A DNA stretch of 5,204 nucleotides from Bacteroidota bacterium (lineage in GTDB: Bacteria > Bacteroidota > Ignavibacteria > Kapaibacteriales > Kapaibacteriaceae), in contig DNLG01000003.1 in the NCBI GenBank assembly GCA_003488525.1, positions 1-5,204 on the forward strand, written 5' to 3'. The position numbers and the translations under genes were made by a program. The first letter of the stretch is position 1, and the number at the start of each line of letters is the position of its first letter. Below the pieces are notes generated by a model that searched no databases, was not told the DNA's origin, and saw only the letters and a list, made by a program, of their open reading frames with translations. Positions 1,403 to 4,872 of this stretch are shown in pieces.

Positions 1403-1879
1403 TCAGGTTGTGATCGTCAGAACATTCGACTGAGCATCGAACGTCGCAGTGAATCTCTTCAGGTTTGTTGCTGAACCGCTCAGAGGCTGTCGGGTAACCG
1501 AGCCATCCGTTCGCGAGAACTCAGCACGATGGCAGGGGCAGACGCAGTTGCCCTGCGGCGATGCCGGCAGATCCACCGGGCAGCCCTGGTGCGTGCACGT
1601 CGAACTGAAGACAGCGAAGGTAGAGTCGGCGATCCTCGAGATGAAAACGGGTTCGTTGGCATTCAGCCCCGTCACTGCCTGAAGCGTTATCCCGCCGATG
1701 GCGGCCAGTTCGGGGAGTTTCGAGATGTCGACCGTGAATGTCTGCCCGGTCGGTGTTGTCGGGTTCGACTCATCCTGCTCGCATCCGGTAACGATACCGG
1801 CGATGACCGGTGCTGAAAGGACGAGGCCGACCGATGAGGTGGCGCGACGTAAAAAGTCTCGACGTGACTGCGTTGACAT
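1403..1879 (-). CDS. Tat-exported Rieske [2Fe-2S] protein, probable lipoprotein
   Basis: This is a 158-residue protein. Residues 5-11 (SRRDFLR) form a twin-arginine motif, followed by a hydrophobic stretch (about 14-31). That stretch ends in VTGC, a plausible lipobox with Cys33 as the lipidated residue. The Rieske domain fills about 47-158. Box 1 is CTHQGC (95-100) and box 2 is CPCH (114-117). Cys95, His97, Cys114 and His117 would bind the 2Fe-2S cluster, and Cys100 and Cys116 would form the usual disulfide. Tat export fits a cofactor folded in the cytoplasm, so the mature protein should sit at the membrane facing the periplasm and carry one electron. The start at 1879 is preceded by GAGGAG with 9-nt spacing and places the Tat motif at the N-terminus. 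A longer frame from 1978 would bury the signal and overlap the upstream gene. No cytochrome b gene is adjacent, so a bc-complex role is unproven. Confidence 0.93.
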   Translation of the reverse strand: MSTQSRRDFLRRATSSVGLVLSAPVIAGIVTGCEQDESNPTTPTGQTFTVDISKLPELAAIGGITLQAVTGLNANEPVFISRIADSTFAVFSSTCTHQGCPVDLPASPQGNCVCPCHRAEFSRTDGSVTRQPLSGSATNLKRFTATFDAQSNVLTITT

Positions 1880-1902: not shown

Positions 1903-2199
1903 TTAGGATGACTTCCGCATACGAACCACACCAAGGATGATCAAGGTTCCGCACACACCAAGAACGAACGCATAGCACCGTGGGAAGTCGGCAACGGTGC
2001 TGTTAAGCGGAAGCAGGCCAAACTTGAATGCCGGCACGTACTCGGTCGTGCGCGTGATGGTGCCGAAGAGCTCGTCTTTGACCTCCTTGACGATCTCTTC
2101 GCGGTCCTTTGAGAAGACCTGATGTCCGTCCTGGTGCCATGCATAGCCCCCTACCAGAATACCAACGATTCCGAGGATGATGAGCAGGCGATTGAGCAT
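1903..2199 (-). CDS. Small protein with two membrane segments, unknown function
   Basis: I do not recognise a family for this 98-residue protein. It has a hydrophobic segment at about 4-20 and another at about 75-93, and it ends in a basic tail (RMRKSS). Between them lies a polar loop of about 55 residues. This loop contains His22 and His26, a charged stretch (SKDREEIVKEVKDEL, 30-44) likely to be helical, and a Thr/Arg-Thr-Thr-Glu segment leading to VPAFKFGLLP (55-64). By the positive-inside rule both termini should be cytoplasmic and the loop periplasmic. The ATG has GGAG 5 nt upstream and follows the heme-barrel gene by 21 nt; the Rieske gene follows after 23 nt. This position suggests a membrane partner or anchor of the neighbouring redox proteins, which is inference only. 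It has no heme motif, and its single Cys pair (75 and 83) lies within or near the second membrane segment. Confidence 0.8.
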   Translation of the reverse strand: MLNRLLIILGIVGILVGGYAWHQDGHQVFSKDREEIVKEVKDELFGTITRTTEYVPAFKFGLLPLNSTVADFPRCYAFVLGVCGTLIILGVVRMRKSS

Positions 2200-2220: not shown

Positions 2221-3411
2221 TCAGTAGAAAATGTGCAATTGGAAGTTCCAGCGCGACGAATAGCCATCCCTCCACGTGTCGAGCACGCGATACTCGGGTC
2301 GAAACTCCACGTAGGGCAGAAGAAAGATCTGCGCGCCGACAATGGCCGTGTTGGTCTGGACTGTACCACTGGCATTTGCCTGATCCGTCCAGTAGCGCTC
2401 GGCTCGAATGTACGGGAACGCCCACGTCGTCGCCTGATACATGAGCTCGGCTGACCAGTTCTCGGTCTCGATCACATCATCAAGGTCCATCCCGGTACGG
2501 TCGATCAACAGCGACAGGTGATCACTCAGTCCAATGCCGGCAAAGGCGCTGGTGAGCATGAAACTGCCATTGCGAAGAATCGACCCGCCGAACCACATGT
2601 TGAGGTTGCCATCAAATGCACGCGGCCAGACGACGGCGCGTGCCGTGATCGTGGGCTGATTGCCGCTGATGGGAGAATAACTCTGTGTGGCTCCGTCACT
2701 AATGCGAACCTGCGATAGACCTTCGGAGCCGAAGACGCCGGTCTGCACGGTGAGCCACTTCAGCCCCTCATAGGTGATCTCTGCGCCATACTCCGACCAG
2801 TCAGGAGCCACGAGCGTCTGCCGCGTCGTTGACGTCATGAAGCTGTATGCGCCCATCGTATGGTCATCATAGCGCATGCCGATGGACGGACGAAAAAGAC
2901 CGGCACGCAGCTGGGGGAGACTCAGCGAGGGGGCGATGATCACGGAGGCCGACCCCATGCGCTGTCCGGCATAGACAATACGCTGGTCGCTGTTCGGACC
3001 CTGCCGCAATGCTGCAAGGTTGAACATGCCTTCGATGGTGACAGCTTTGATCGGCGTGAGTGCGGCATACAGTGACGCCTGCATCGGAAACGTGGCGCGC
3101 TTGGAGTCCGGACTCGTGAACGCGCGTGTGCTCTGCACTCGGGCATCCATACCAAGCGTCAGCATTCCGTCGAAGAACGTGTTCTCCTTGTCGATGGCAT
3201 ACATCGGTGCAAGGAATGACGAGTCGCGACTGATGAGCCCAACGTCATACCAGCTATACCAGCCCAGGTCGTTGCGGACACCGCCACCCGACGGTGCGAC
3301 GTGGCAGTTGGAGCAGCGGTTGCCGGATATGGCTGAAAACTGAGGGATCGCCACAGCAGTAGCCGTGGCGATCCCCATGATGATCGAGATGAGCAGTGCT
3401 TGCATGCGCAC
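2221..3411 (-). CDS. Monoheme cytochrome-beta-barrel fusion, probable outer-membrane protein (Cyc2-like architecture)
   Basis: This 396-residue protein starts with a Sec signal peptide (about 1-21, likely cleaved after AVA). A single c-type heme motif, CSNCH (33-37), follows, then a Gly-rich GGGVRNDLG stretch (42-50). The remaining 340 or so residues have alternating polar and hydrophobic strands rich in Tyr, Trp and Phe, separated by short turns and longer polar loops, and the chain ends in QLHIFY. A C-terminal aromatic residue after such a strand is typical of outer-membrane beta-barrels. One N-terminal heme joined to a porin is the architecture of Cyc2-type outer-membrane cytochromes, some of which oxidise Fe(II). 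I infer a similar layout from architecture, not from a recognised sequence match. The gene lies 7 nt after the paired-domain lipoprotein gene. The start is either GTG at 3411 (AGGA 5 nt upstream, adds Arg2 to the signal) or ATG at 3405 (AGGA 11 nt upstream). GTG is preferred, though not decisively. Confidence 0.82.
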   Translation of the reverse strand: MRMQALLISIIMGIATATAVAIPQFSAISGNRCSNCHVAPSGGGVRNDLGWYSWYDVGLISRDSSFLAPMYAIDKENTFFDGMLTLGMDARVQSTRAFTSPDSKRATFPMQASLYAALTPIKAVTIEGMFNLAALRQGPNSDQRIVYAGQRMGSASVIIAPSLSLPQLRAGLFRPSIGMRYDDHTMGAYSFMTSTTRQTLVAPDWSEYGAEITYEGLKWLTVQTGVFGSEGLSQVRISDGATQSYSPISGNQPTITARAVVWPRAFDGNLNMWFGGSILRNGSFMLTSAFAGIGLSDHLSLLIDRTGMDLDDVIETENWSAELMYQATTWAFPYIRAERYWTDQANASGTVQTNTAIVGAQIFLLPYVEFRPEYRVLDTWRDGYSSRWNFQLHIFY

Positions 3412-3416
3412 TAGAA

Positions 3417-3420
3417 TCCT
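3417..3420 (-). promoter_or_regulatory. Ribosome binding site of the heme-barrel gene
   Basis: AGGA on the minus strand overlaps the TAG stop of the upstream lipoprotein gene (TAGGA). It lies 5 nt before GTG at 3411 and 11 nt before ATG at 3405, so spacing favours the GTG start. The overlap with the stop suggests that a ribosome finishing one gene can start the next. Confidence 0.5.
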
Positions 3421-4435
3421 ACTTCAGCTTAAAGGTTGCAAGGCACTTTTCGAAGATCGGCAGATAGACTGACTGCTCGGGCTTGAACCAGTTCATCGTC
3501 ACGCGCACCATTCGGTCGCCCTTGACCATGAAATATGCCCTTGACTGGATGTTGGCCGCAGGGTTGTAGGTGAAGTAGTAGGCCTTCACACCCGAGAGTG
3601 ACGTTGCCGTTGCGCTTCCGCCACCATACTTGCCCTTGTTTTGCTCGATGATCTTATCGAGGTTCTTCTGGTCCTTCGCATCGAACACGTCCACCTGAAT
3701 CGTACAGTCCAGGCGCGAGCCGGCGAAGCTCATCGAGGACAGACCCGAGGCCTGACCCTTTGTTCCCTGGAAGTTCTGTGGGATCTGGATCGTAAAGTCC
3801 GGAGCATTGTAATTGCGCAGAGTATCGGAAGGGGGCTCTGGGGCAGCCGGACCCGAAGGGGTAGGAGCAGCAACGACAGGACGCTGGGCAAGCTTCACGC
3901 TTGAGAGGACCTCGGCGAATTCCTTCTCGTATTCGCCGAAGGTGTTGCCAAAAGCAGCCAACGTAACGATCGTTACAACAGAGTCATTCTCCGCAAAGTA
4001 GATCTCCGAGCGATACTCTCCGTCTTCCTGGTCGAACTTGACGGCCAGCTTCTGTGCTGGCTTGCCACCGAGGGTTGCCACCGAGCGTTCGTAGCGATCG
4101 AGGTTATCTTCAAACTCCAGCTTGGAGCGCTTGACCAGAGAGTCGATCGTAGTGGCTGAGTCCAGCGGGAAGGCACGCAGCTCGATCTTCGCTCCGCCCT
4201 TGCCTTTACCGAAGGACAGGAAACGGGAGCTATGGGCCTTTGACGAGATTGCCAGAACAAGGTCGCCGCGACGCTGCTGCACGAACCAGTTCTTGGGCAC
4301 CTTGATCTCGAATTTGCGGATCTCGTCCTTGCGGAGTTCAAGACCCTCGATCGGCACCGGTGTGGCTTTGCGCGAGCAGCTTGCCAGGGTCATGACAAGG
4401 ACCATGGCGAGCGTGACGTAGCGAAGTGTGGACAT
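3419..4435 (-). CDS. Lipoprotein with two tandem PsbP/DcrB-like domains
   Basis: This is a 338-residue protein. A short signal peptide ends in the lipobox LASC, with Cys20 as the lipidated residue. Two related domains of about 130-140 residues follow (about 41-183 and 208-338), joined by a Pro/Ala-rich linker (185-203). They align to each other by eye: FEIKVPKNW with FTIQIPQNF, AKIELRAFPLDS with CTIQVDVFDAKD, a Lys-rich helix in each, SEIYFAEND with SRAYFMVKGD, and EFAEVLSSVKL with IFEKCLATFKL. This pattern of an opening strand ending in P-x-N-[WF], a closing helix and a final strand resembles PsbP/DcrB-type folds. The exact family is uncertain and no catalytic site is seen. It has no heme motif. 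The ATG at 4435 has GGAG 9 nt upstream and puts the signal at the N-terminus; a start at 4462 lacks a binding site. Being sandwiched between two cytochrome genes suggests an envelope assembly or docking role, which is inferred. Confidence 0.82.
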   Translation of the reverse strand: MSTLRYVTLAMVLVMTLASCSRKATPVPIEGLELRKDEIRKFEIKVPKNWFVQQRRGDLVLAISSKAHSSRFLSFGKGKGGAKIELRAFPLDSATTIDSLVKRSKLEFEDNLDRYERSVATLGGKPAQKLAVKFDQEDGEYRSEIYFAENDSVVTIVTLAAFGNTFGEYEKEFAEVLSSVKLAQRPVVAAPTPSGPAAPEPPSDTLRNYNAPDFTIQIPQNFQGTKGQASGLSSMSFAGSRLDCTIQVDVFDAKDQKNLDKIIEQNKGKYGGGSATATSLSGVKAYYFTYNPAANIQSRAYFMVKGDRMVRVTMNWFKPEQSVYLPIFEKCLATFKLK

Positions 4436-4444
4436 GTTGCGATT

Positions 4445-4448
4445 CTCC
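4445..4448 (-). promoter_or_regulatory. Ribosome binding site of the paired-domain lipoprotein gene
   Basis: GGAG on the minus strand lies 9 nt before the ATG at 4435. The alternative ATG at 4462 has no purine-rich site in the bases before it, so this element decides the start. Confidence 0.65.
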
Positions 4449-4467
4449 GTTGTGTTAATCATCGATT

Positions 4468-4872
4468 TCAGTTGTTAAGAGCCCCTTCCCGAACCCACTG
4501 CGTCATACCGCTGCGGTGGTTTGCCGAGACGCGTTCCTGCAGCAGTCCCCACGGATGAGAAAAGGTGCCATTGAGAACCTGGATAACGAGGCTTTCGTCC
4601 GGCTTGCCCGGCACGATAAGATTGCCGCGGTCGAACATCAGCGTCGAGTACGACGTCAGCCGAATGCCTGCAGCCGGATTGATATCAGCATGGCATCCGC
4701 CCACGCCGCATGAAAGGGCAATGAAGGGCAGGACATGTGCTCGGAAGCTCACGTTCGTATCAGGAAAGATGATGTCGGCCGGGTTGGTCACCACATTATC
4801 ACCGCAGGCGGCCAGGGCTATGCACGAGACGGCCATTGCGGCAACGATCAAGGGCGACCACAAGGGGCTCAT
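4468..4872 (-). CDS. Monoheme c-type cytochrome lipoprotein with a CX4CH site
   Basis: This is a 134-residue protein. The signal peptide ends in LAAC, with Cys23 as the lipidated residue. FRAHVLPFIALSCGVGGCH (43-61) matches the opening of the small cytochrome c domain common in Planctomycetes and Bacteroidota. The heme-binding pair is CGVGGCH (Cys55, Cys60, His61), a CX4CH variant of CXXCH like those in some cytochromes c3. Also typical are AAGIRLTSYSTLM (67-79), VPGKPDESLVIQVLNG (87-102) and the closing MTQWVREGA (123-131). Where the family usually has Met-Pro as the distal heme ligand, this protein has His106-Pro107. The ATG overlaps the PanB stop by one base (TGATG), and a strong AGGAGGAG lies 8 nt upstream. 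It probably shuttles electrons in the periplasm or at a membrane surface. Heme attachment is likely but not proven for this spacing. Confidence 0.85.
   Translation of the reverse strand: MSPLWSPLIVAAMAVSCIALAACGDNVVTNPADIIFPDTNVSFRAHVLPFIALSCGVGGCHADINPAAGIRLTSYSTLMFDRGNLIVPGKPDESLVIQVLNGTFSHPWGLLQERVSANHRSGMTQWVREGALNN

Follow-up and report, generated by a model that had tools for sequence, protein, structure and literature searches.

A predicted one-heme outer-membrane barrel encoded near a Rieske protein gene in Kapabacteria-like Bacteroidota

The barrel gene and the genes beside it

The window analyzed here, the whole 5,204-nt stretch of contig DNLG01000003.1 (Bacteroidota bacterium, assembly GCA_003488525.1, family Kapaibacteriaceae), carries on its minus strand a gene for a predicted one-heme outer-membrane barrel protein of 396 aa (complement(2221..3411)), followed on the same strand by genes for a 98-aa protein, tm98 (1903..2199), and a Rieske [2Fe-2S] protein (1403..1879). 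The barrel open reading frame (ORF) has 396 codons from GTG, and the closest homologs are recorded at 394 aa, beginning at an ATG two codons inside that start; the plus-strand reading of 2221..3411 is interrupted by 6 stops. A first-pass annotation made from the sequence alone had placed an ORF here with its strand unstated, and 251 proteins that matched the barrel at E ≤ 1e-3 in a protein search showed it to be real.

The layout described in that annotation was read directly in the translation. A hydrophobic signal-peptide-like start (residues 1–21, 3349..3411, minus strand, as are all features below) was recognized by eye. It runs into AIPQF (residues 21–25, 3337..3351) and is followed by CSNCH, the predicted single heme c site (residues 33–37, 3301..3315), and by GGGVRNDLGWY (residues 42–52, 3256..3288), of which GGGVRNDLG spans residues 42–50. 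About 340 residues come after it, ending in Tyr396. No family for the protein was found in Pfam, NCBIfam or PADLOC, and a sequence-profile search of the PDB gave no match at E ≤ 10.

The 98-aa protein has two hydrophobic ends and a conserved middle, D[EP][LI]FGT...Fx[LF]GLLP in its profile; neither Pfam nor NCBIfam matched it above cut-off. The Rieske protein has a twin-arginine start and the lipobox VTGC-EQDES; PF00355 matched at E 2.8e-9 on the longer ORF 1403-1978.

Predicted fold and conserved residues

AlphaFold2 with 96 sequences gave a 16-strand barrel (residues 84–395, 2227..3162) at pLDDT 92.9, within the 14–18 strands that the first-pass annotation had expected. Values below 50 occurred only at residues 13–21, within the signal-like start; an earlier model from 55 sequences had been below 50 at residues 17–44. 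The nearest solved folds were OprP and OprO, whose structural alignment begins at model residue 72–73, past the CXXCH segment, with 15–16% identity. Strand-face parity calculated from variable columns only agreed in 15 of 16 strands, and the inward-face count was 12 of 12. Structural matches to OmpU starting at model residues 19–20 were considered as possible evidence for a plug in the lumen but were not counted, because the range shows end points only.

Exactly one CXXCH was present in all 96 aligned members. The invariant residues were C33, C36, H37, R46, R91, D182, D183, H184, R336 and R375, and the conserved arginines predicted to point inward were R91, R169, R336, R371, R375 and R387. The final residue was Y or F in 94 of the 96 members. 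Past residue 40, His or Met was enriched at three columns only, M110 (95/96; 3082..3084), H184 (96/96; in the DDHT loop, residues 182–185, 2857..2868) and H393 (92/96; 2233..2235), which we take as the candidates for a second heme ligand; by parity, M110 would lie on the outward face, and H393, in the last strand, would lie inward.

The heme segment

The barrel protein was compared with six Cyc2-like proteins from Proteobacteria plasmids, found by a typed Cyc2 probe and then aligned. These read A-x-P-x-F-x-x-Q-T-G-x-x-C-x-x-C-H followed by FPELTPYGR with small changes, and the window barrel reads AIPQFSAISGNRCSNCH, then VAPSGGGVRNDLGWY. The pattern AxPxF....[ST]G..C..CH is in register between the two groups. 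In a profile comparison, the family matched the six proteins with Prob 93.9 over 41 columns that end just past CXXCH and include part of the signal peptide, the barrels being unaligned; a broader set gave Prob 91.3 over 29 columns. As a control, the family matched five ordinary c-type cytochromes from those plasmids with Prob 10.8. A tblastn search of plasmids with the window barrel protein gave no match at E ≤ 0.01, and in the PDB the typed Cyc2 probe gave nothing beyond weak cytochrome matches.

The family resembles Cyc2, as characterized in the portion of the source cited (PMC8406198), in its signal start, its single N-terminal CXXCH, its length (396 aa vs. at least 365 aa), its 16-strand barrel predicted to be nearest OprO/OprP and the AxPxF before the heme site. 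It differs in carrying GGGxRNxLG and in lacking two motif elements. Within AXPXFAR[Q/K][T/Y], the window sequence AIPQFSAIS keeps AxPxF and lacks AR[QK], an element that is complete in only 3 of the 6 comparison proteins; in CHVAPSGGG it lacks the PXL four residues after CXXCH, which all 6 comparison proteins have. Because these two elements are missing, the barrel protein, judged on its motifs, is not a Cyc2 by the published definition. The first-pass description of a Cyc2-like fusion thus holds for the layout and for a distant profile link in the heme segment, and fails as an assignment to Cyc2.

From CxxCH through GGGxRNxLG, the family matched, with Prob 95.9 over 23 columns, three small CxxCH proteins whose genes adjoin the barrel gene in distant relatives of the same class. 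The one of the three that was scanned, from locus L137, hits Temptin_C (Pfam PF24784). The small proteins did not match the Cyc2-like proteins (Prob 2.8), and Cyc2-like proteins against ordinary cytochromes gave 38.7. The temptin-like proteins share the mini-motif CxxCHxxxxGGGxxNxxG with the barrel but have no barrel; they carry an Asp-rich DSDGDG stretch and a C-terminal secretion-tail domain. The GGGVRNDLG stretch had been read earlier as a sign of a lineage separate from Cyc2, which still stands; however, the stretch is not private to the barrel. Since the match to Cyc2-like proteins runs up to CxxCH and the match to temptin-like proteins starts from it, the heme segment appears either to splice together two motif traditions or to keep an ancestor-like state. 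We regard this as suggestive, because the comparison alignments hold 6, 5 and 3 sequences. Genes for temptin-like proteins with CxxCH...GGG..N..G and ends resembling C-terminal secretion tails lie near the barrel in L137 (637-1341), L134 (2629-3300) and L132 (2964-3647).

Distribution of the family

Among the best 120 of the 251 matches, from which names were taken, the named homologs came from Kapabacteria, Ignavibacteria and further bins of Bacteroidota, or from an unplaced bacterium. The barrel was present in 55 of 60 related genomes, and in 51 of the 56 genomes of the lineage with at least 90% completeness and at most 5% contamination. An even sample across the phylum gave a match in 55 of 296 genomes, 54 of these 55 being of the same class. 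In GTDB contigs, 90 stretches encode a relative, and 77 distinct loci were retained, including some with bin labels, as given, of Latescibacterota, Gemmatimonadota and Myxococcales. Three loci are labeled Bradyrhizobiaceae (L047), Aquificales (L093) and Melioribacter roseus (L035), which does not fit their barrel sequences and neighbors, as these look Kapabacteria-like; on that ground, the three records are likely mislabeled bins.

Gene neighborhood

The 77 loci were searched with iterated profiles, seeded with the window genes and with a single YceI gene. The main neighbor counts refer to the 65 loci with at least 2.5 kb downstream, loci from one genome being counted separately. A same-strand Rieske gene lay between 200 bases before and 2.6 kb after the barrel in 50 of 65 loci, its product typically being a Tat-signal lipoprotein; the 98-aa protein was encoded within that range in 50 of 65, and a YceI lipocalin in 29 of 65 (an assignment confirmed by Pfam in two loci). 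The order barrel, 98-aa protein, Rieske was kept in 40 of 65 loci; in L105 and L106 the Rieske gene is upstream of the barrel. None of the nearest neighbor matches within the limit was on the opposite strand. The tm98 matches in L102 and L105, 0.8–1 kb away from the barrel, could be spurious through profile drift. No YceI match was found in the close relatives of the window, L031–L048. These conserved Rieske, YceI and 98-aa neighbors had gone unmentioned in the first-pass annotation.

In the 60 related genomes, a Rieske match lay within 2.5 kb of 53 of 64 barrel copies (67 rows minus 3 fragments, set against all 107 Rieske rows) and in 47 of 55 barrel genomes. Of these 60, 53 genomes matched both profiles, 2 matched only that of the barrel, 2 only that of the Rieske protein, and 3 matched neither.

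In the window, the tight same-strand row reads, from upstream to downstream, PanB-like 3′ end, PSCyt1, DcrB-like, barrel, 98-aa, Rieske, RsmB and DCC-like ORF; the names of the first and last are provisional. Pfam matches above cut-off among the six window proteins scanned were PSCyt1, Rieske and RsmB (331-1398). The small lipoprotein-like PSCyt1 protein (4468..4872, PF07635) carries CGVGGCH, whose CX4CH spacing would make any attachment of heme at this site one of the rarer type. The gene at 3419..4462, whose lipoprotein-like product matches DcrB weakly and below the Pfam cut-off, adjoins the barrel in the closest loci. A same-strand PSCyt1 match within 2.6 kb of the barrel was found in 29 of 77 loci.

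All six Cyc2-like loci have an annotated c-type cytochrome nearby, downstream in L138–L142 and upstream in L143, and none has an annotated Rieske gene in the stretch shown. In L138, a Caballeronia plasmid, a gene for a high-potential iron-sulfur protein (1421-1732) lies upstream of the Cyc2-like gene, a further case of a one-heme porin with an iron-sulfur protein gene nearby.

Several loci carry other arrangements. In L067, L070, L071, L074 and L094, labeled Latescibacterota or Gemmatimonadota and without a Rieske match, the 98-aa gene begins about 25–30 bases past the barrel. L103 (6755-13445) has a tandem duplicated triplet of a protein with several CxxCH sites, the barrel and a Rieske gene. 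Downstream of the row, L049 (10982-13771) and L058 (11088-13901) encode large proteins, each roughly 930 aa long and bearing a single CXXCH or CX4CH site close to its start; that of L049 has Ig-like repeats and a secretion tail below cut-off in Pfam.

The Rieske protein

The window Rieske protein has the ligands C-x-H and C-x2-H as well as the two disulfide cysteines, in CTHQGC and CPCH. The four ligand positions were invariant in 18 of 18 aligned sequences, and the disulfide cysteines did not occur in every member. Its PDB matches were Rieske proteins of b6f, bc1 and AioB.

After the lipobox, the window protein reads C-E-Q-D-E-S. Among 56 Rieske sequences from the 77 loci, all taken by the lipobox pattern although at least two (L054 and L092) were mis-parsed, positions +2, +4 and +5 after the lipid cysteine were acidic in 47, 27 and 30 sequences, respectively, vs. 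6/33, 1/32 and 2/32 in 33 regex-predicted control lipoproteins from those loci. The cited part of PMC5080379 reports a surface-export signal, C-X-K-(D/E)2-X, in Capnocytophaga and acid-rich counterparts of it in Bacteroides and Flavobacterium. The resemblance of the acid-rich residues to this Bacteroidota signal leads us to assign the Rieske lipoprotein to the outer face, though our confidence in this is low.

Scanning six window proteins turned up no cytochrome b. At E ≤ 0.001 the genome has a single PF00033 match, which falls below cut-off and sits on a different contig with a separate twin-arginine gene as its neighbor; the genome also holds two heme-copper oxidase matches and cytochrome c assembly matches. 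As the cytochrome-b-like gene lies elsewhere with a twin-arginine gene of its own, the barrel-linked Rieske protein is probably not a bc-complex subunit, and that assignment was set aside (one cytochrome b model was searched).

Discussion

The barrel gene is real and well conserved. The reading we favor, and to which we give about an even chance, is an outer-membrane electron relay of Cyc2-like layout, in which a 16-strand one-heme barrel would pass electrons to or from a Rieske lipoprotein. The single CXXCH would bind one heme, its segment would fold against or into the barrel, and H184, M110 or H393 would supply the second ligand. On one face, electrons would step between this heme and the Rieske lipoprotein's [2Fe-2S] cluster. 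On the other, the periplasmic carrier may be the PSCyt1 lipoprotein in close relatives and possibly a YceI-bound quinone in other lineages. The substrate may be a soluble small reductant, Fe(II) as for Cyc2 being one possibility. YceI-like domains are reported to bind ubiquinone-8 (PMC8981238), and the lipocalin BcnA, with the cytochrome b561 LcoA, to limit membrane lipid peroxidation (PMC9113575); taking BcnA to be a YceI protein, these make a quinone shuttle possible in the YceI-bearing lineages.

Several observations weigh against the relay. No Rieske gene lay within the limit in 15 of 65 loci, and none of Rieske, 98-aa protein or YceI in 6 of 65. Of the 55 barrel genomes, 8 lacked a linked barrel–Rieske pair, and 11 of the 64 barrel copies were unpaired; two barrel genomes had no Rieske profile match, and of the five barrel-less genomes one had a clear Rieske match (2.1e-36) and one a weak match (5.2e-18). 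One of eight distant same-class loci, L128, has a Rieske neighbor, and in L131–L137, distant loci of the same class spanning 3.3–4.1 kb each, there was no Rieske, YceI or 98-aa profile match. Gene linkage is, moreover, no proof of contact. The acid-rich signal might be interpreted differently here than in Capnocytophaga, and having Glu at position +2 could point to some other location.

The family could instead be a divergent Cyc2, an Fe(II) oxidase passing electrons inward with the Rieske protein in place of the usual periplasmic cytochrome. The like size class, single CXXCH, 16 strands and nearest porins published for Cyc2 agree with this, as does the heme-segment pattern in register; AR[QK] is not strict even among the comparison proteins, and one of their six loci has a high-potential iron-sulfur protein gene upstream. 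However, PxL and AR[QK] are both absent, every comparison locus has an annotated c-type cytochrome and none a Rieske, and presence in 51 of 56 high-quality genomes is wide for a specialized iron oxidizer; we consider this origin unlikely. The phosphate porins are the closest folds, and the conserved inward arginines would also suit an OprP/OprO-type solute channel, whose heme would gate or merely stabilize the pore. Such a channel fits poorly with a CXXCH invariant in all 96 members and with the frequent linkage to a redox protein, which makes it quite improbable. Barrel, YceI and Rieske might also serve envelope redox repair, keeping quinones or lipids reduced with no extracellular route. The YceI genes in 29 of 65 loci, the BcnA/LcoA effect on lipid peroxidation and the binding of ubiquinone-8 point that way, whereas the close relatives of the window lack a YceI match, and we hold out little expectation for it.

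Among known systems, Cyc2 has a heme potential near +208 mV and oxidizes Fe(II), according to the excerpt of PMC8406198 cited; only its heme segment aligns with the family by profile, and c-type cytochrome neighbors alone contrast with the Rieske, tm98 and often YceI neighbors here. The Geobacter Ext cluster similarly combines a porin (ExtI), a 104-aa protein (ExtJ) and a Rieske protein (ExtO), but ExtI is reported, in the part of PMC5877670 that describes it, without a heme or iron-sulfur cluster binding motif, and the cluster also has cytochrome b and multiheme cytochromes. MtrAB and PioAB likewise route electrons through an outer-membrane barrel, but one of 26 strands with a separate decaheme cytochrome, as given in parts of PMC8406198 and PMC10654088. 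No pairing of a one-heme porin with a Rieske protein is described, by title or start of abstract, in the open-license literature searched, Geobacter Ext being nearest; the pairing is apparently undescribed there. To our knowledge, the bacterial outer-membrane electron routes are Cyc2-type one-heme porins or multiheme porin-cytochrome complexes.

A broader and more doubtful proposal, which we put forward tentatively, is a new class of outer-membrane electron gate made of a heme-plugged porin and a surface Rieske lipoprotein, often with a YceI quinone carrier and a two-helix linker, that would be a core trait of the order and replace the job of Cyc2 or Mtr. If the relay is true, a barrel carried by 51 of 56 high-quality genomes of the lineage and linked to an iron-sulfur protein would mean that extracellular electron exchange is routine in uncultured Kapabacteria-like bacteria and not confined to specialized iron oxidizers. 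The relay would also offer marker-gene searches a second family, distinguishable by its motifs, and provide a small two-protein system suited to testing in E. coli.
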